Under the pieces are notes generated by a model that ran no database searches, was not told the origin of the DNA, and worked only from the letters and a program-made list of their open reading frames with translations. A stretch of 64,000 nt of DNA from Chloroflexota bacterium (lineage in GTDB: Bacteria; Chloroflexota; Dehalococcoidia; Tepidiformales; Tepidiformaceae), in NCBI GenBank assembly GCA_016191435.1, contig JACPOQ010000001.1, positions 62,001-126,000 of the forward strand, given 5' to 3'. A program made the position numbers and the translations under genes. Shown here in pieces: positions 16,856-52,433 of the stretch (position 1 is the stretch's first letter; the number at the start of each line of letters is the position of its first letter).

Positions 16856-19800
16856 TCACTTCTTCGGCATCGGCGGCGCAGCGGCGGAGGCGAGTTCCGG
16901 GCCCGACGGTTGGGTTGGGGCCGGCTGCACGTCCGGTTCGATGGTGAGGAAGGCGCGCGTGAAATCTTTGGGGATGCTGCGCAGCTGGATGTACGTGGGG
17001 ATATCGCGCGGGCGGAAGGCGCGGCCGAGCTTCGGGCCTTCCGGCGTATCGTACCAGAGCTTGTAGATCCGGTCCTTGTCGATAGGCACGGTGAGGCCTT
17101 CGAAGACGGCCACGCCGCTCCTGTAATCGGAGCCGATGTAGAGCGTGCCGCGGACCTCATCGCCGAGGAGCGTCATCTGCAGGGCGCGGGTCGAAAGCGC
17201 GGCGGCCTGCGAATCCGCATCGGATCGGGCCTGGCGCCATGCGTAGGCGAACGCGGTCGAGCCGCCGAGCGCCACCACCAGCAGAAAGATCGAGAGCCAC
17301 GCCGTAAAGCGCCAGGCGCCCGGGTCGCCGGGCTTCGCGAGCGGGCGGCCCTCGTCGTCGTAGCGGTCGAGGTCCTCGTCTTCGAGGTCGTCGCTGTCGA
17401 GATCGGCTTCGCCGAGGGCCTTGCGCCGCAGGAGGCCGAGGCGTCGCCGGCGCGGCGCGGGCTGCAACTCCGGCTCGATCGCCGGCAAGGGCGCTGGCGC
17501 CTCCACAAGCGCCTGCGGCGGGGCGGGAGGCGCGTCGCCGGCCTCGGTGGCCGGCGCGGGAGCGGGCGGCACGTCGCCGGCCTCGGTGGCCGGCGCCGGA
17601 GCGGCCAGGAGTGCAGCGAAGTCCAGAGAGTAGTCGTCGTCTTCGTCAGCGCCGGCCGGGAGCGGGGCCGCCGCACGCATGACCGAGGCCGGCTCGGCGA
17701 AGAGCGCGCCGGGGTCCTCGCCCGTGAAGGTACCCCCGTCGCCGTCATCGGGCGGCGCGGTGGCGGGCGCTTCGGCGACCGGGGGCTGCGGCTCGGCCTT
17801 CTCGGCGAACAGGGAACCGAAGTCGCCTTCGAGCGTGTACTCACTTTCGTCAAAGGCGTCCGGGGTCAGCGGTGCGAACTCGGCCGGCTGGTGTGCCGCG
17901 GGGCGATCGTCCTGCGGGGCCGCCGGTCTGCGCCGGAAACGGCCGAACCGGCGCCTGCGGAGGGTGGCGTCGCGGCCGCTGTCCGGGAGCGCTTCGAGGG
18001 GTGGGATCGCGCGCACGCCGGGCGCGGGGGGGCCCATGGCCGCCGTGTCCGCGCCCGCCGGCGCCTGGCGGCGAACGTCCCCTGGGCCAGGCTCTCCGAT
18101 GATAGTCGCGTCATCGAGGACGGCGGCGGGCTCGGGAGATGGTTCGAGCGCATCCGGGGCGGCGGCGGCGTCCGCCGGGAAAGCAGACCCAAGCAGTGCG
18201 TCGAGGGATGGCTGCGAGACGGGGCCGGTGGCCTCGGGGCCACCGAGGGCACGGACGATGGCGTGGTCGGGATCCATGCCCGTCCCGGCGCCGGGGGTGG
18301 AGACGTCCGGGGCGGCCACCTCGGGCTCCTCCGCGAATGCTTCGCCGAGGTCGTAGCTTTCGCCCGGCTCGAAGTCGCCGGTATCGAACGCCGCCGGCCC
18401 CGCGGCGAGGTCCGCCGGTCCCGCGGCATCGGCGTCGAACGCCGGCACGGCGGCTGCCTGATCCCCGGACGCGGCGGCCGCGCGGCGGCGGAATGGGCCG
18501 AAGAAGCCGCGGCCCGGTTGCGCCCTGGACGCCGGCGGATCCGGCACGTAACCGGGTTCGGTGGGGGGCAGTTCGATCGGCACGGGTGGAGCGGATGCGC
18601 CGTGATACGGGGCGGCAAGGCCTTCGAGCTCGGCGAAGATGTCGCCGGGCTCGTCCGCGGCGGGGGCAGGAACAGCCGCGGTCCGTGCCTCGGCCTCCGC
18701 GGCGCCAGCTGGACGGTCCCGGTCGACGGCGGGGGAGGGGTTCCAGACGACCTCGGGTTCCCAGGCGGCGGGCGCCAGGTCGAAGGCCTCGGCCAGGTCG
18801 TCGATGGCGCCGGGCGGAGCTTCCCCGGCGAGCGCCTCCGCGTCACGGTCTCCTCGCAGCGCCTCCGGGACGGCGCCGGCTGGCGGTTCGAGGACCGTCG
18901 AGTCCTCCGGGCCTGGCCCGGGTGGCACGCGGTTATCGGCCTCGATCAGGTCCGCGACGGGTGTGGAGCCTGGCTCCGCACCGGCCGCAAGCGCCCGGGT
19001 CGCCTGCTCTGCCTGCAGCAGTGCCAGCGCCTCGGAGACGGACCTGGCCGGCGGCTCGACGACGACCTGACGGCGGACGGGCGCGGGATGCTGCTCGCGG
19101 TGGGAGCCGAAGATGCCGAAGCGTCGCAGCTTTCGCGTGCCGTGCGCGGAACGGTCTTCGTCATCCGGTCCCGGCGCAGGCACGGTGCCGGCCCCGTCGA
19201 GAGGTCCCGCCTCGCTGCCTGGCGTCTCCAGGGGCGGCCCGGCGGGCTCCCCGAGCGAGGCTGCGGGCGGCTCGATGACCACGTAGCGGCGCATCGGTGA
19301 CGGGCGCTCGGTGCGAGCTCGGGGAAAGATGCCGAACCGGCGACGGGGTGCAGCGGTTGGCGCTTCGCCGCCAGGGCCGGGGCCTTCGAGATCGGGGCCG
19401 GGCAGGGCGGCGGCCTCGGCGGGTGAGAGGCCGGATTCGACGATACTGAAATCTCCGGCGGCGCCGGCGGGCGCGTCCTCCACGACGGGCGCCGACTGGC
19501 TGGAGGTCAGGGCAATGGCCTCGGCGACGGTTTTCGCGGCGGGTTCGACGACCACCTGGCGGCGGACGGCGGCAACATGCTTTTCGCGGGAGCGGCGGAA
19601 GAAGCCGAGACGGCGGCGGCTCGTGCGCGGTGGCGCTTCGACGGCGAGGTCCGCGCCATCGTGTTCGATGGCACGAAGGGCGGCCGCCTCGGCAGCGGAG
19701 CGGCCCGACTCTACCAGCTCGAACTCGCCGACGGCTTCCGAAAGGGCTTCGCTGGCCGCTGGAGGCGCTTCCCCGGTTGCGAGCGCGATCGCCTGGGCGA

Positions 19801-21970
19801 CGGTCGCGGCGGGCGGTTCGATGACGACCTGGCGGCGGACCGGCGCGGGGCTCGGCTCCCGAACCTGGCGGAAGAGGCCGAACCGGCGGCGGCGCGGGGC
19901 TGGACGCGCCGGCGCTTCATCGGCGACGGGGGCGTCTTCGTGGCCGATGGCGGGCGCGACAACCGCATCCGCCATACCAGGGAGCGCTTCGCCGGCAGCT
20001 GTGAACGATTCGCCAGGTGCAAGGGCGAGCGCTTCCGCGACCGATGCGGCAGGCGGTTCGATGACGACCTTTCGCAGGACCGGGGCGGGCATTTCGGGCC
20101 GGGGGCGGGGAAGCATGCGGAAGCGCCGGCGACGGCCGGGCGGTTCGGTGGGCACGGGCGGGGGGCTCATCAGGCCTGCCGCGGGCTCATCGCCGGCGAG
20201 GGCGCCGCCTGGATCGACGCCAAGGAGATCGCCTGGATCCTCCGAGAAGTCCACGGGCGATGCTTCGCCGCCATCCTCGGCCACCGACGACGGCTCAGGC
20301 TCGGGGGCTCCCGGCTCAGTCAGAGTGGCTGGAGCGTCCGGGGGCTCGGCCATGGGCTCGGCGATTGGCCGGGCCTCGGCGGGCGCGGGTGCATGGGCAA
20401 CGGCACCGGCGAGATCGTCACGCTCCGGTTGGGACGAATCCTCCAGGAACGCGTCCAAATCCAGCACCGGGGCAAACGGCGGCTCTTCGACGGCGGATTC
20501 GGACGCTCCCGCCGGCGAAACCGGGGCTGGAACAGGTGGGAATTCGACGCTGCCGGCGGCGATGGGCGCCGGGACGGCGCGGCGGAAGATGCCGAAGCGG
20601 CGGCGGGACGGGGCAGGCGCACGGGCGGGGCCAGGGGCGCCGGGAGTTTCCGGCTCGCCGTCGTCGTAGGAGTCGACGCCGGAAAGGAAGTCGCGCCCGT
20701 CGGCGGCGAGGGTGCCGGGTTCAGGCGCGGACGATTCGTCCGTAAAGGCTGCGGCGGGGCGTGGCGGCGGGCCATCGAACGTGGCCCGGGCGGCGAGCGT
20801 CGCCGCAGCGGCCGCGGGCGGCGACTCATCCGCGAGGGTGGGGGCGAGCTCCAGGTCCTCACCTTCGATGGCCGCTACCTCGTTCGCGGCCAACGTGACG
20901 GGTGCGGCCGGTACATCGAGCGCCGCGGCCGGCTCCTCCAGCGAGGCCGGGGCCGGTTCGTCGAGGGCCGTGGCGACGGGCACCTCGGCGGCCGGGCCGG
21001 GCATCGGGTCAGCGGATGGATGAGCAAGGTGAGCCGCGGGCGCCGCCAGTCCATCGGCCGCGAGGCGGGATTCGAGCTCAGGCCCGGTCGCGGCTGCGTC
21101 CGGCGCGGCGCGGCGGAACATGCCGAAGCGCCGGTGGGTGCGGGCCGCCGCCGGCTCGGCGCCGGGAGCGATTTCCGCCGTATCGCCGGGGCCTGGCGTT
21201 GTTGGCACTTCGAAGGGAGGCGGCGGTGCGCCCGAGATGGCAGCCGCGATCGTGGCATCGGAGCCAGGGACGGGCGGCGCCGGATCGGATTTTCGTGGCC
21301 GATCGGGGTGCGGCTCCCGCCCCCCGGGGTCGCGCTGACGGAGCAGTTTGCGGCGCTTCCAGGCGGGACCGTGCCACTCGGTCGCCGCGCTATCGGCCGT
21401 TGGCCGTTGGCCACTGGCAGAGTGGCCGGCGGCGGGACCGTGATGGCCATCCCCGGGCGGCTCTTCGGTGTCGTCAGTGGCCGCTATGGGCGGCGACTCG
21501 CCGGGGCTTTCGGCGGAACCGGGTCCGCCGGCGGCGGCGGGGTTGGCGTCTGCGACGGGTTCGGGAGCGGCGTCCCAAGGCGCGGGGAGTTCGCCCTCGG
21601 CCGCGAGCAGATCGGCGAAAAAGCCAGGGGACCGCTCCTCGCGACCGGGAGCGGCGAGGTCGGCGGTGACGGCAGGAGCATGGCCGTCCTCGCTCTGGTG
21701 GCCGTTTTCGGCGGGCCCGCGGGGCGCCGCAACGGGGAGGTCGGGGAGGCGGCGGGCGACTCCGGCGGCGATGCGCTCGAGCGCGCCGGCGGGCAGCGGG
21801 ATGGGCGGCGCGCCGAGCACGAGGGCTTCCGCGGCCTGCACGTAGAGGCACGCTTCCGCGCGGATAGCTTCGCTCTTCGCTGCGACGCCGGCAACGGTCT
21901 CGGCATCCTGGGGGTCGAGGAGCCCGAGGGCGTAGTCCGCGAGGCGCTCGCGGACCTGATCGTTGTTCAC
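16856..21970 (-). CDS. Giant RskA-like anti-sigma protein with repetitive cytoplasmic region
   Basis: 1704 residues from GTG 21970, overlapping the sigma-factor stop by 4 bases. Residues 1-80 (NNDQVRERLADYALGLLD...) are a helical anti-sigma domain without the HxxxCxxC zinc motif. A transmembrane helix is near 1556-1577 (WLSIFLLVVALGGSTAFAYA). The outer domain ends YKLWYDTPEGPKLGRAF...FLTIEPDVQPAPTQPSGP, as in RskA. The roughly 1450 residues between are Ala/Pro/Glu-rich and disordered. They are punctuated by about ten basic modules of the type RRRFGIFRR, encoded near 21124, 20590, 20115, 19875, 19603, 19328, 19111, 18495, 17940 and 17434. Five modules carry an added VRRQVVIEPPA..VAEAIAL tail. 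Typical RskA is about 230 residues. Confidence 0.88.
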   Translation of the reverse strand: MNNDQVRERLADYALGLLDPQDAETVAGVAAKSEAIRAEACLYVQAAEALVLGAPPIPLPAGALERIAAGVARRLPDLPVAAPRGPAENGHQSEDGHAPAVTADLAAPGREERSPGFFADLLAAEGELPAPWDAAPEPVADANPAAAGGPGSAESPGESPPIAATDDTEEPPGDGHHGPAAGHSASGQRPTADSAATEWHGPAWKRRKLLRQRDPGGREPHPDRPRKSDPAPPVPGSDATIAAAISGAPPPPFEVPTTPGPGDTAEIAPGAEPAAARTHRRFGMFRRAAPDAAATGPELESRLAADGLAAPAAHLAHPSADPMPGPAAEVPVATALDEPAPASLEEPAAALDVPAAPVTLAANEVAAIEGEDLELAPTLADESPPAAAAATLAARATFDGPPPRPAAAFTDESSAPEPGTLAADGRDFLSGVDSYDDGEPETPGAPGPARAPAPSRRRFGIFRRAVPAPIAAGSVEFPPVPAPVSPAGASESAVEEPPFAPVLDLDAFLEDSSQPERDDLAGAVAHAPAPAEARPIAEPMAEPPDAPATLTEPGAPEPEPSSVAEDGGEASPVDFSEDPGDLLGVDPGGALAGDEPAAGLMSPPPVPTEPPGRRRRFRMLPRPRPEMPAPVLRKVVIEPPAASVAEALALAPGESFTAAGEALPGMADAVVAPAIGHEDAPVADEAPARPAPRRRRFGLFRQVREPSPAPVRRQVVIEPPAATVAQAIALATGEAPPAASEALSEAVGEFELVESGRSAAEAAALRAIEHDGADLAVEAPPRTSRRRLGFFRRSREKHVAAVRRQVVVEPAAKTVAEAIALTSSQSAPVVEDAPAGAAGDFSIVESGLSPAEAAALPGPDLEGPGPGGEAPTAAPRRRFGIFPRARTERPSPMRRYVVIEPPAASLGEPAGPPLETPGSEAGPLDGAGTVPAPGPDDEDRSAHGTRKLRRFGIFGSHREQHPAPVRRQVVVEPPARSVSEALALLQAEQATRALAAGAEPGSTPVADLIEADNRVPPGPGPEDSTVLEPPAGAVPEALRGDRDAEALAGEAPPGAIDDLAEAFDLAPAAWEPEVVWNPSPAVDRDRPAGAAEAEARTAAVPAPAADEPGDIFAELEGLAAPYHGASAPPVPIELPPTEPGYVPDPPASRAQPGRGFFGPFRRRAAAASGDQAAAVPAFDADAAGPADLAAGPAAFDTGDFEPGESYDLGEAFAEEPEVAAPDVSTPGAGTGMDPDHAIVRALGGPEATGPVSQPSLDALLGSAFPADAAAAPDALEPSPEPAAVLDDATIIGEPGPGDVRRQAPAGADTAAMGPPAPGVRAIPPLEALPDSGRDATLRRRRFGRFRRRPAAPQDDRPAAHQPAEFAPLTPDAFDESEYTLEGDFGSLFAEKAEPQPPVAEAPATAPPDDGDGGTFTGEDPGALFAEPASVMRAAAPLPAGADEDDDYSLDFAALLAAPAPATEAGDVPPAPAPATEAGDAPPAPPQALVEAPAPLPAIEPELQPAPRRRRLGLLRRKALGEADLDSDDLEDEDLDRYDDEGRPLAKPGDPGAWRFTAWLSIFLLVVALGGSTAFAYAWRQARSDADSQAAALSTRALQMTLLGDEVRGTLYIGSDYRSGVAVFEGLTVPIDKDRIYKLWYDTPEGPKLGRAFRPRDIPTYIQLRSIPKDFTRAFLTIEPDVQPAPTQPSGPELASAAAPPMPKK
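21390..21420 (+). repeat. Reiterated GGCCGTTGGCC-type word inside the anti-sigma gene
   Basis: CTATCGGCCGTTGGCCGTTG followed by GCCACTGGCAG. It encodes the ASGQRPTADS segment on the minus strand. A close relative lies at 36754-36790 after htpX, so an intergenic-type word seems to have entered this coding sequence. Confidence 0.45.
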
Positions 21971-22629
21971 GGCGTGGAGACCTCACGGGCGCGGCGGGCG
22001 AGCGCATCGCGCACGCGTTCGAGGCCGAGGCGCAGGTTCGCGCGGACGCCGGCCTCGGGGACGCCGCGGATGCGCGCGATCTCGGCGGGGCTGAGGCCCT
22101 TCCAAAAGGCGAGGGCGAGCGTCTCGCGTTGAGCTTCGGTGAGCGATTCGAGGACGCCGCGGACCATGCGCGGGGTCGCGGCCGCCATCACGGAGCGCCA
22201 GACCTCGTCCTGCCTGGCGGCGGCCCAGGCGGCCTCGGGCGGCGGTTCGCGGCGGCTCCGGTAGCGTCCGTTCTCCCGGAGCAAGCGAAGCGCCCGCTCG
22301 CGCACGCGCGCCAGGATCCAGGCTTCTTCGTCATCGCCACCGGCATCGAAGGCGAAGGCATCTTCGGAAAGGAGCACGAACGCATCCTCGACCGTCTGCT
22401 CGGCGAGTCCGCGGTCGCCGAGGACCGTGGTAGCGACCGAGTAGGCCGCGGCGGCATAGGCCGAGACTACCTCGTGGAAGGCCGCTGGCTCACCTTCGCG
22501 GTAGCGTTCGAACGCGGTCTTCATCGACGCATCGCGCCCCTGCCACTGGATATCGGCCAGCTGCGGGCGCGCCACGTACGCGTCCGCATCCAGGGCGCGA
22601 CCCGCCTGGGCGACCCGGGACGGACTCAT
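21967..22629 (-). CDS. ECF-type sigma-70 family RNA polymerase sigma factor
   Basis: 220 residues if it starts at ATG 22629 (GGAAAG eight bases upstream); ATG 22665 is an alternative adding 12 residues. Region 2 is FERYREGEPAAFHEVVSAYA through QTVEDAFVLLSED, and region 4 is the helix-turn-helix SLTEAQRETLALAF...GLSPAEIARIRGVPEAGVRA, with LRLGLERVRDAL. About 35 residues precede region 2. It should direct RNA polymerase to a stress or envelope regulon. The stop overlaps the anti-sigma start (GTGA), so both are made from one transcript. The -35/-10 pair of an autoregulated promoter was not identified. Confidence 0.9.
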   Translation of the reverse strand: MSPSRVAQAGRALDADAYVARPQLADIQWQGRDASMKTAFERYREGEPAAFHEVVSAYAAAAYSVATTVLGDRGLAEQTVEDAFVLLSEDAFAFDAGGDDEEAWILARVRERALRLLRENGRYRSRREPPPEAAWAAARQDEVWRSVMAAATPRMVRGVLESLTEAQRETLALAFWKGLSPAEIARIRGVPEAGVRANLRLGLERVRDALARRAREVSTP

Positions 22630-22882
22630 GGTACGGGCTTTCCGCGGTAGGGTGCGAACCTTCATCGGGTCAGTATCACCAGTCGCGAGGGTTGCCTGAA
22701 ATGGCCCGCGCCACATTCGCCGGGGATGACGAGAGGGTTCGGGCCGAAGCCGACCTCACACCGGCCGGGATATGTGACGCGAGCATGGTACGCGCACGAC
22801 CCATGTTTATGTAAGTCTGCGAGATTGCCAAGGTGGCAGACCGGTGAAGTCACTCGCCGGCTACCATGACGCAACCGGGGGC

Positions 22883-23003: not shown

Positions 23004-23183
23004 GGTCGCCGCGGTCTCGCGCTTTGCGCTCGGCCGCTGATCCACGTGTGCCCGCATTCGAACCTCGGTCATTGGTCCCGGAACGTGGGAGGTGGTCGCC
23101 GCGGTCTCGCGCTTTGCGCTCGGCCGCTGATCCACGTGTGCCCGCATTCGAACCTCGGTCATTGGTCCCGGAACGTGGGAGGT
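23004..23183 (+). repeat. Perfect 90-bp tandem repeat, two copies
   Basis: Units 23004-23093 and 23094-23183 are identical. Each begins GGTCGCCGCGGTCTCGCGCT and ends GAACGTGGGAGGT. The unit contains a CATTCGAACCTCGG stretch and a GGTCCCGGAACGTGGGA stretch. The identity suggests a recent duplication. Confidence 0.92.
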
Positions 23184-23245: not shown

Positions 23246-24289
23246 TTAGGATGGCGAAGCGGTGCGGTTTCGGGTGCGGCTGACGAAGCGGCGGCCGAGG
23301 AGGTAGAGCGCCAGCACGGGGAGCGCAAGCCAGGCCGCGGCCACCGCAACGACGGCGCCGCCGCGGGCGATGCTGCGCACCACGTCGAGTGAGCCTGCCC
23401 AGGCTTCCGAGAATGCGGCGCGCACACTCGTGGAGCCGTCGTTGGTGCCGGGTTTGCCGATGGCGATGGGCGCCAGTGTGACATCGATCGTCGCGAGGTC
23501 GGCCAGCCGGTCGAGGACGTTGAGGCGGCCCTGGATCTGCTCGATCTGGGCGCGGACGTTATCGAGCCGGTCGTTGACGGTGAGGATGTCGTTGATGCTC
23601 TTGGCCTGTTCGAGCAGCTTGAGGTACTGGCTCTCGGTGCGCTCGAGGTTGCGCTGGCGGCTCTGGAGGTCGGTGTATTGCTCAGTCACCTCGCTCGACT
23701 TCGAACCTTCCTGCTGGACCTTCGCGCCATCGATCGTGCGGATCGCCTGGAGCGCGTCCTGGTACTTGTCGGCCGGCACGCGGATGGTCAGCGTCGCGGA
23801 CTCGTCGCGGCCGTCGGAGCCGGCGGAACCGCCCCGGAACGTGGATTTTTCGACGAAGCCGCCGTTGTCGCGCGCAATGGCGCTGGCGGCGTTGAACGCC
23901 TGCGGGACGTCTTTGACGCCGAGGTTGATGGCGGCGTTGAAGATGATTTTGCGGTCGAGCGTGCTGGCGAGGTTGGCGGCGTTGCCGTCGTTCCCGGCGC
24001 CGGGTGCTGCGCCGCTGGTAGCGGGCGCGCTCGAACCACTCGGGGGCTGAGCACTAACGCCGCCGGTGGACTTCTCGGCCGGCGAGGCGGCAAAGCTTTC
24101 GGTGGAGGTGGTGGCGTCACCACCGGTGCCGCTCGCTGTCCGGGGCGAGACGGTGGCGGCCGAGGGCCCTGGCGGCACCGAACTCCCGGTGCTGTTGTCC
24201 GAGGCGCCGCAGGCCGAGCCGAGCAGCGTGAGCGAGGCCACGGCGCCGGCAGCGACGAAGGCGATGACCGTCCGATGATGACTCTTCAT
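23246..24289 (-). CDS. DUF4349-domain lipoprotein
   Basis: 347 residues from ATG 24289, GGGGA upstream. Signal peptide with lipobox LGSAC near residue 24, then about 80 residues of Ser/Ala/Pro/Gly linker. The DUF4349 domain covers the rest: LDRKIIFNAAINLGVKDVPQ, GGFVEKSTFRGG, ATLTIRVPADKYQDALQAI, then a long coiled coil (VTEQYTDLQSRQRNLERTES through DNVRAQIEQIQGRLNVLDR). A C-terminal transmembrane helix (AVVAVAAAWLALPVLALYLL) and a basic tail follow. It is thus anchored at both ends. Function of DUF4349 is unknown; it is presumed envelope-associated. Confidence 0.9.
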   Translation of the reverse strand: MKSHHRTVIAFVAAGAVASLTLLGSACGASDNSTGSSVPPGPSAATVSPRTASGTGGDATTSTESFAASPAEKSTGGVSAQPPSGSSAPATSGAAPGAGNDGNAANLASTLDRKIIFNAAINLGVKDVPQAFNAASAIARDNGGFVEKSTFRGGSAGSDGRDESATLTIRVPADKYQDALQAIRTIDGAKVQQEGSKSSEVTEQYTDLQSRQRNLERTESQYLKLLEQAKSINDILTVNDRLDNVRAQIEQIQGRLNVLDRLADLATIDVTLAPIAIGKPGTNDGSTSVRAAFSEAWAGSLDVVRSIARGGAVVAVAAAWLALPVLALYLLGRRFVSRTRNRTASPS

Positions 24290-24443
24290 GGTGTTTCCCC
24301 TGACAGGCACATATCGCGCCCAATGGACTGAGAACGCCGGGCACGCGGGATTTGTTCCCGGACTGCTGAGGTTCGCGTGCTTTGCCAGCGGCGGGCGCCA
24401 CCGGTACCGTTCGTGGCACATCAGTCCGGCCCGGAGCAGATCC

Positions 24444-50633: not shown

Positions 50634-51614
50634 CTACTCGGTCCTTTCCGTGCGGCGGACGGCGAGGGCGGAAATGGCCTCGAGGCAGACGCGGTGCGCG
50701 ACTTCGGCGGTGATGCCGGCGCTGTCGTAGGGCGGCGAGACTTCGACCACGTCCATGCCGGCGAGCTCCACTTTGAGGACGATTTCGCGGACGGCGCGGA
50801 GGAGCTCGCGGGCGGAGAGGCCGCCAGGTTCGGGAGTGCCGGTGCCCGGCGCGAACGCGGGGTCGAGGACATCAACATCGACGGAGAGGTAGATGAGGTC
50901 GGGGCCGTCGAGCGCTTCGGCGATGGCGTCGGTAAGCACGGCGTCGAAGCCACGGCGTTCGATCTCGGCCATGAAGTGCGTGCGCAGGCCATGTTCGCGC
51001 ATCCATTCGATCACGGCGGGCGGCGGCCAGTAGCCACGGAGCCCCACCTGCACGAAGTTGCGGCCGGCGACGTGGCCGGCCTCGATCAGGCGGCGCATCG
51101 GCGTGCCATGGCTGAGCGAGACGCCCCAGGACTCGTCGGCGGCATCGGCGTGCGCATCGAAGTGGACGATGCCGACGCGGCGGCCGTGGTGATCGGCGAC
51201 GGTGCCGGCGGCAGGGTAGGTGATGGAGTGGTCTCCGCCGAGGACGATGGGGATGCAGTTGGGGGCGGCTTCGAATAGGGCCGCGAGCTTCGCCCGGATG
51301 GCGTCGTGGCTGCGGGGGATATCACCGGGGATGCAGGCGGCGTCGCCGGCGTCGATGGCGGTGAGGTGCTTGAACGGCTCGACTCCGAGGCCGAGGTGGT
51401 TGAGCGACCACTGTGTCAGGTTGCCGGCGGCGCGAATGGCGCGCGGGCCGAAACGGGCGCCGGGGCGGTGCGTGACGGCGACATCGAAGGGCGCGCCGAC
51501 AATGGCGATATCGGGGGCAGCGGCGCGGATTGCCTCTGGTTCGTGGACCCACGGGAGGTGAAGGAACGTGGAGATATCGGCGTACGCGGGGTGGAGGCGG
51601 GGGTCGGTGGACAT
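50634..51614 (-). CDS. speB: Agmatinase/ureohydrolase family protein
   Basis: 326 residues from ATG 51614. Manganese ligands are all present: PIVLGGDHSITYP (His), VGIVHFDAHADAADES (DAHAD) and LIYLSVDVDVLDPAFAPGTG (SxDxDxxDP). N-terminal DIAIVGAPFDVAVTHRPGAR is the family opening. It hydrolyses agmatine or a related guanidino compound to an amine plus urea. Exact substrate among arginase, agmatinase, guanidinobutyrase and proclavaminate types cannot be fixed; agmatinase is the commonest for this length. Confidence 0.9.
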   Translation of the reverse strand: MSTDPRLHPAYADISTFLHLPWVHEPEAIRAAAPDIAIVGAPFDVAVTHRPGARFGPRAIRAAGNLTQWSLNHLGLGVEPFKHLTAIDAGDAACIPGDIPRSHDAIRAKLAALFEAAPNCIPIVLGGDHSITYPAAGTVADHHGRRVGIVHFDAHADAADESWGVSLSHGTPMRRLIEAGHVAGRNFVQVGLRGYWPPPAVIEWMREHGLRTHFMAEIERRGFDAVLTDAIAEALDGPDLIYLSVDVDVLDPAFAPGTGTPEPGGLSARELLRAVREIVLKVELAGMDVVEVSPPYDSAGITAEVAHRVCLEAISALAVRRTERTE

Positions 51615-51620
51615 GGGTGA

Positions 51621-51650
51621 AGTTCCAGGTTCCGGGTTCCGAGTTCAGAG
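51621..51650 (+). repeat. AGTTCCAGGTTCCGGGTTCC word cluster
   Basis: Repeats of GTTCC(G/A)(G/A)G directly upstream of the agmatinase start codon (divergent side); same family as 50422-50487. Confidence 0.65.
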
Positions 51651-51881
51651 TGTAAGCCGCTGCCGGCGCTCGTGGGCGCCTGGCGGCGGGCAAGTCCTGA
51701 AGACCCGGCGGCCCAGCTCGAATTTGGTGTTCCCCAGGGCCCGCCGAAGCGGGGGTTGGCCCCGGGTGTGATCGTCGAGGGACTGCCGCGGCGGGGGTTC
51801 ACGGTCCAGAATTCGAAACCACCTGAGTCCAGCGCGTGCGGGCGGGTGTAGGATTCGCGCGATCGAGAGCGCCGGAGGGGC

Positions 51882-52433
51882 ATGGTGGGCGAGAAAGAGA
51901 CAGCGGCGGGGTTCCCGGGCGCCCGCACGGTGGGCCAGGCGGCCGCCGGCGGTACAGGGCCGGAAACCTTCGCGAAGGCCGCGAGCGGGTCGCAGAGCGA
52001 CCCAAAGAGCCAGGGCGACGCCGCCGCCGGCGGTGGGGCCGCCCCGGAGGCCGCCGCGGCTGCGATCGTCAAGAGCAAGAGCAACATCACGAACAATCGC
52101 GAGGCGAGCGACGAAGACGGCGGCGGGTCGCCGGACGCCGCTGAGGGCGGCATCGTCAAGAGTAAGAGCAACATCACGAACAATCGCGAGGCAGGCGACG
52201 ACGATAGCGATACGTTGTCGGACCCGGCGGCTGACGCGTCGCGGGCAGCGAACCTGAACCTCAGCAAGAGCAACATCAACTGCGAGGCCGGGGGTATGCC
52301 TGCGGGCGGCCCGGAGCCGGAAGAGGCGGTGAACCTGAATTCGAGCAAGAGCAACCGGGTCGCGACCGATGCGCCCGGCGGCGGGCCTGAGCCGGACGAA
52401 TCGACGAACCTGAACTCCAGCCGGAGCAATTAA
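51882..52433 (+). CDS. Small disordered protein with five KSxSN-type repeats
   Basis: 183 residues from ATG 51882 with GGAGGGG just upstream. No signal peptide or transmembrane helix. An Ala/Gly-rich leader of about 60 residues precedes five spaced motifs: IVKSKSNITNNREA (62-75), IVKSKSNITNNREA (91-104), NLNLSKSNINCEA (124-136), NLNSSKSN (151-158) and NLNSSRSN at the very C-terminus (176-183). Linkers of 12-20 residues are acidic and Gly/Pro-rich. The first two repeats are nearly identical in DNA, the others diverged. The design looks like a multi-core precursor peptide or a repeat-tag protein. Function unknown. Confidence 0.75.
   Translation: MVGEKETAAGFPGARTVGQAAAGGTGPETFAKAASGSQSDPKSQGDAAAGGGAAPEAAAAAIVKSKSNITNNREASDEDGGGSPDAAEGGIVKSKSNITNNREAGDDDSDTLSDPAADASRAANLNLSKSNINCEAGGMPAGGPEPEEAVNLNSSKSNRVATDAPGGGPEPDESTNLNSSRSN

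Follow-up and report, generated by a model that had tools for sequence, protein, structure and literature searches.

The window, i.e., the whole 64,000-nt stretch of DNA that was analysed, carries on its minus strand a single uninterrupted frame of 1704 codons, which starts with GTG, is codon-adapted and overlaps an ECF sigma factor gene by 4 nt (Table 1). Frame and overlap are situated where the initial annotation had placed them. Homologues of the sigma factor begin at a place equivalent to an internal ATG at approximately 22524 (MKTAFERYREGEP), which is likely the true start and would yield a protein of about 185 aa. Upstream of the sigma gene, RNA families, tRNAs, promoters, and terminators were sought and none was found. 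Between the DUF4349 and sigma genes, a 90-bp unit without Rfam or tRNA match is perfectly duplicated in tandem (23004-23183; 2.0 copies, 100% identical). Another tandem repeat, with a period of 87, occurs at 52065-52223, and the surrounding minus-strand ORF (51419-52429) reads as repeats like LLLLEFRFTASSGSGPP.

Table 1. Features of the sigma/anti-sigma locus in window coordinates.
Feature	Position	Strand	Remarks
DUF4349 protein gene, upstream syntenic neighbour	23246..24418	-	PF14257 E 3e-49 and synteny
ECF sigma factor gene, longest frame	21967..22716	-	Pfam Sigma70_r2 and r4, TIGR02937
Anti-sigma factor gene	16856..21970	-	1704 aa; ORF call and codon adaptation
N-terminal class I anti-sigma domain, residues 1-80	21731..21970	-	NF010501 E 3e-7, alignment, zf-HC2 in 9/11 relatives
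Middle, Ala/Pro/Glu-rich, Cys-free, probably disordered, residues 81-1550 (1470 residues)	17321..21730	-	composition; module unit unfolded in AF2
Weak basic patch KRRKLLRQR	21332..21358	-	
Module 1 RRFGMFRR	21110..21133	-	
Module 2 RRRFGIFRR	20579..20605	-	
Module 3 RRRRFRMLPR	20105..20134	-	
Extension of module 3 (VLRKVVIEPPAASVAEALAL)	20021..20080	-	
Module 4 RRRRFGLFR	19868..19894	-	
Extension of module 4 (VRRQVVIEPPAATVAQAIAL)	19781..19840	-	
Module 5 RRRLGFFRR	19592..19618	-	
Extension of module 5 (VRRQVVVEPAAKTVAEAIAL)	19508..19567	-	
Module 6 RRRFGIFPR	19319..19345	-	
Extension of module 6 (MRRYVVIEPPAASLGEPAGP)	19235..19294	-	degenerate
Module 7 RKLRRFGIFGSHR	19097..19135	-	
Extension of module 7 (VRRQVVVEPPARSVSEALAL)	19019..19078	-	
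Module 8 RGFFGPFRRR	18482..18511	-	weaker
Module 9 RRRRFGRFRRR	17927..17959	-	
Module 10 RRRRLGLLRRK	17420..17452	-	membrane-proximal; counterpart in same-genus relative
Acidic juxtamembrane stretch EADLDSDDLEDEDLDRYDDEG	17348..17410	-	
Transmembrane helix, residues 1553-1578	17237..17314	-	AF2 helix, hydrophobic stretch, alignment
RskA_C-type beta-rich outer domain, residues 1597-1704	16859..17182	-	RskA_C PF10099 in 10/11 aligned members; AF2 pLDDT 90

On its own, the anti-sigma protein gave no Pfam hit. Its first 74 residues match the NCBIfam model NF010501 (putative anti-sigmaE protein) below the 225-bit cut-off of that model, and among the aligned N-termini of the relatives 9 out of 11 are matched by zf-HC2. 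Profile matches of this domain to solved anti-sigma factors are weak (E 0.03-0.3) and comprise 3hug, which we take to be RslA, 2q1z (ChrR), and 8rlz (DdvA). The HxxxCxxC zinc motif is present in the relatives from genomes G005, G006, G007, G010, and G014 and absent from the window protein, its same-genus relative in G001, and genus g16; judging from the alignment, the zinc ligands of the window protein are lost. At the other end, RskA_C is matched with a best E of 2e-16, and the window C-terminus shares 23-46% identity with the aligned members and retains the common invariant columns. AlphaFold2 predicts the transmembrane helix and an eight-stranded outer domain, for which a Foldseek search against the PDB did not return a confident neighbour (best E 0.011).

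Residues 1-80 and 1551-1704 together have the size of the complete anti-sigma factors of the relatives (235-243 aa). The layout initially proposed, N-terminal helices plus a transmembrane segment and RskA-type outer domain making up about 230 normal residues, with about 1450 residues inserted between them, is thus borne out by the homologues, with respect to their length, the RskA_C matches at the C-termini, and the zf-HC2 or NF010501 matches at the N-termini. By these criteria the protein belongs to the RskA-type class I anti-sigma factors, its linker being hugely expanded and probably disordered. Like RskA/RskA_C proteins (PF10099, about 230 aa), it is composed of an N-terminal anti-sigma domain, one transmembrane helix and a C-terminal outer domain, and its gene directly follows and overlaps an ECF sigma gene, a pairing conserved in the relatives. 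Unlike these, it has basic-aromatic modules, set in about 1470 additional residues that separate the anti-sigma domain from the membrane, and its 1704 aa compare to a typical, though not defining, RskA-type length of about 230-300 aa. With class I anti-sigma domains (ASDI; ChrR, RseA, RsiW, RslA) it appears to share the short N-terminal helical domain, which aligns with the zinc-motif relatives, but not the zinc ligands; a long linker was not found described for ASDI, the mean length of which is 101 +/- 33 aa (PMC7406223). In line with the initial annotation, the open-licence literature searched yielded no description of an anti-sigma factor built in this way.

The middle is characterized by recurring basic-aromatic modules. 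Eight matches to a strict module pattern were found in it versus 0.014 expected from composition shuffles (at most 2 among 500), and two looser modules (RRFGIFG at residue 949 and RGFFGPFRRR at 1154) bring the total to the ten that had been located at these places beforehand; their number is far above chance. An eleventh, weaker basic patch at residues 205-213 was missing from that list. All five extensions of the VRRQVVIEPPA type are present as described, except that the fourth lacks the VAEAIAL half. Arginine and lysine are clustered, 70 of the 116 falling into 13% of the middle. Taken as a whole, the middle has a net negative charge (NCPR -0.08 to -0.19) and is devoid of cysteine. FoldIndex, a simple measure, marks just 41% of the segments of this Ala-rich sequence as disordered. 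Based on an alignment of five module units, AlphaFold2 returned short helices only, e.g., TVAQAIAL (pLDDT 64, pTM 0.21), and a folded module was therefore rejected; we presume that the middle is disordered. Acidic-aromatic stretches amount to nine (shuffle mean 4, maximum 11 in 200 shuffles), and since they are not clearly above the shuffles, acidic-aromatic counter-modules were dropped as candidates.

In every block of the middle, codon adaptation to the neighbouring genes is highest for this frame, with z values of 3.7-6.7 SD above a GC-matched synonymous null that keeps the amino acids and the GC content. Among the repeat copies, in-frame pN/pS is 0.43 for the RR[FL]Gx[FL]R core and 0.41 for the VRRQVVIEPPA extension, compared to 0.76 to 2.9 in shifted frames. 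Copies of module and extension hence differ mostly at synonymous sites, i.e., the peptide and not the DNA alone is kept, and by this measure the modules are under purifying selection. Both lines of evidence uphold the one uninterrupted frame claimed at the outset and support translation of the middle as part of one protein. The antisense strand of the gene also contains long ORFs of 796 and 851 aa, which score lower in codon use than the sense frame and are most simply explained as by-products of the high GC content.

The search for homologues in related genomes suggested in the initial annotation was carried out with the transmembrane segment plus outer domain as query in 38 genomes of the family, and recovered short as well as long forms. 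Homologues occur in 12 of the 38, comprising seven complete proteins of 235-243 aa, four long ones, and one that is apparently frameshifted. The latter (L022, G022:C1:1648000-1662000) belongs to a short orthologue pair in which the tblastn matches are broken in both genes, by either a sequencing error or decay to a pseudogene. The long forms comprise 1704 aa in the window genome (G000), 773 aa in G001 of the same genus, 946 aa in G007, and 1797 aa in G014. In a scan of public contigs the only named relative was the G001 contig (Dehalococcoidia bacterium isolate SJ148), and a scan of viral sequences yielded none.

The gene order DUF4349, sigma, anti-sigma, small transmembrane protein, Usp, TrkA, TrkA is shared by G000, G001, G005, G010, and G014, and by G007 as far as its short contig extends; the locus is therefore orthologous within the family. 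At this site the anti-sigma factor has 235-241 aa in G005 and G010 and is long in G000, G001, G007, and G014, thus the length of orthologues varies more than sevenfold. In G008, G013, and G018 (L084, L087, L090) the DUF4349 gene adjoins the small transmembrane protein gene and the sigma/anti-sigma pair is absent, an arrangement which suggests that the pair was gained or lost at this one site. In a tree built from the conserved parts, G000 groups with G001 (support 100) and G007 with G014 (69), the long forms occupy long branches, and the short G010 form is left unresolved (UFBoot 32). Due to this poorly supported placement, the tree is compatible with one expansion followed by a loss as well as with two expansions. 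Among the matches from searches at class level (393 genomes) and phylum level (400 genomes), the long middle was not seen and no other frame exceeded 700 aa; open frames reached up to 682 aa, and the longest ones inspected proved to be upstream read-through or fusions. One of the RskA_C-like proteins encountered (L139; G474:C1, about 2440237) apparently consists of two tandem outer domains joined via a segment containing GGFLRGLFGRRAERD. As far as these comparisons reach, the giant linker is a lineage-specific expansion of an otherwise ordinary RskA-type anti-sigma factor, limited to a few related genomes of the Dehalococcoidia (Chloroflexota).

The cytoplasmic middles of the long forms span roughly 540 to 1,560 residues and are distributed over three genera, two of which have the same module and the third a different basic repeat. 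A PSSM built from the modules of the window protein and tested against shuffles detected three sites each in G001 and G014, above 99% of the shuffles, and nothing above shuffles in G007, which has a basic repeat of its own (GSRFRLGRARRD). Basic clusters above chance occur in all four long forms, and an acidic stretch precedes the transmembrane helix in all four and in none of the short forms. The 1797-aa protein of G014 (L023) additionally contains repeated acidic-Trp units in its middle (DDWAELLAGAAEDVDELE type; DDWAxL-type), which are distinct from the basic modules. A profile of the extension unit found essentially no match outside the window genome in the 38 family genomes (one marginal hit, E 0.0097). 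DNA patterns encoding RR[FL]Gx[FL]RR occur at 8 places in the whole window genome, 5 of them within this gene (control 2). Most other genomes of the family have hardly more of them than of the control, which rules out a general family motif.

Considering these observations, we propose, with a probability of about 0.42, that the modules jointly act as a multivalent electrostatic tether which binds the inner leaflet, acidic patches of its own chain, or both. In this arrangement the N-terminal helices would hold and presumably inhibit the co-encoded ECF sigma factor, and signal reception, on the far side of the single transmembrane helix, would fall to the outer RskA_C domain. Inhibition of SigK requires no more than the cytoplasmic part of RskA, and the sequential cleavage of RskA involves a site-2 protease (PMC7509140). 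Several genes of the site-2-protease family (M50) are present in the window genome, and release of the sigma factor probably proceeds via regulated intramembrane proteolysis. The extended, low-complexity, Cys-free arm with its ten modules is inserted between sigma-binding domain and membrane. Each R2-4-[F/L]-G-x-[F/L]-R1-3 cluster may make weak, reversible contacts with anionic inner-leaflet lipid, with acidic stretches of its own chain, among them the patch just before the transmembrane helix, or with both. Such docking would keep the long arm, together with the sigma factor it holds, folded back close to the membrane and render its reach tunable.

Module counts above chance, purifying selection, clustering of R/K, and the PSSM sites in G001 and G014 lend support to such a tether, and a flexible, net acidic chain whose basic clusters contain paired Phe/Leu and which has an acidic stretch before the membrane would fit reversible docking on acidic lipid or on acidic parts of the chain. 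Docking on the membrane and acidic docking in cis seem to fit the evidence alike, and nucleic acid or another protein would be an equally conceivable partner of the modules. Polybasic disordered segments are established binders of acidic membranes in eukaryotes (PMC10771482). The MARCKS-type segments resemble the present protein in that basic clusters punctuate a disordered chain which is Ala/Pro/Glu-rich elsewhere, but are eukaryotic, lysine-rich, and lipidated, and the comparison is one of functional analogy and not of homology. The middle is probably dispensable for the basic switch, because the short orthologues encoded at this locus presumably function in its absence. More tentatively than the tether itself, it may be speculated that the modules fasten the domain holding the sigma factor, reversibly and like a zipper, to the membrane or acidic patches and thereby set the output, their number being tuned by lineage.

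Alternatively, the modules might engage acidic-aromatic stretches, either within one molecule or in its neighbours, so that membrane-attached clusters sequester the sigma factor cooperatively. The charge-segregated sequence, with acidic-hydrophobic stretches between the modules and before the membrane, and the DDWAxL-type units of G014 speak in favour of this, but the acidic-aromatic stretches of the window protein are not clearly more numerous than in the shuffles and those of G001 are few, and we consider such clustering rather unlikely. Arg-rich clusters in disordered chains commonly bind nucleic acid, and a coil of 1460 residues would, as an estimate, reach roughly 40 nm; binding of nucleoid DNA or mRNA, by which the arm would place the sigma factor near promoters or couple membrane and chromosome, is nevertheless improbable given that the middle is net acidic and that the conserved F/L-x-x-F/L within each cluster would be more typical of docking on membranes or proteins. 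A mostly neutral, expanding spacer, with the two conserved domains tolerating whatever long flexible chain lies between them and the modules arising as a side effect of duplication in GC-rich DNA, would account for a middle of about 0 to 1560 residues across orthologues, for lineage-specific repeats with extension-bearing units confined to the window genome, and for the long branches; it is quite improbable in view of module copies that differ in synonymous codons while the peptide is kept, of the same module in another genus, and of the basic clusters of all long forms. An artefact, i.e., a misassembled locus or a middle not translated as one protein, is very improbable despite a draft genome of 98 contigs and the long antisense frames, since codon adaptation and synonymous bias track this frame all along, no internal stop interrupts it, and long frames occupy the same syntenic position in three other metagenome-assembled genomes. 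Of the findings named in advance as speaking against the protein, short relatives lacking the middle do exist, and a misassembly is not indicated.

Bacterial anti-sigma factors with one transmembrane helix are regarded as compact three-part devices. In this family, the same locus encodes a device of 235 residues in one genome and of 1797 residues in another, and thus provides a natural experiment on the role of a disordered cytoplasmic linker in transmembrane signalling. The repeated R-R-F-G-x-F-R-R module, which two genera have in common, is specific enough to be examined by means of peptides. If the modules indeed hold the arm and its sigma factor reversibly, they would constitute a novel level of control in sigma signalling across the membrane.
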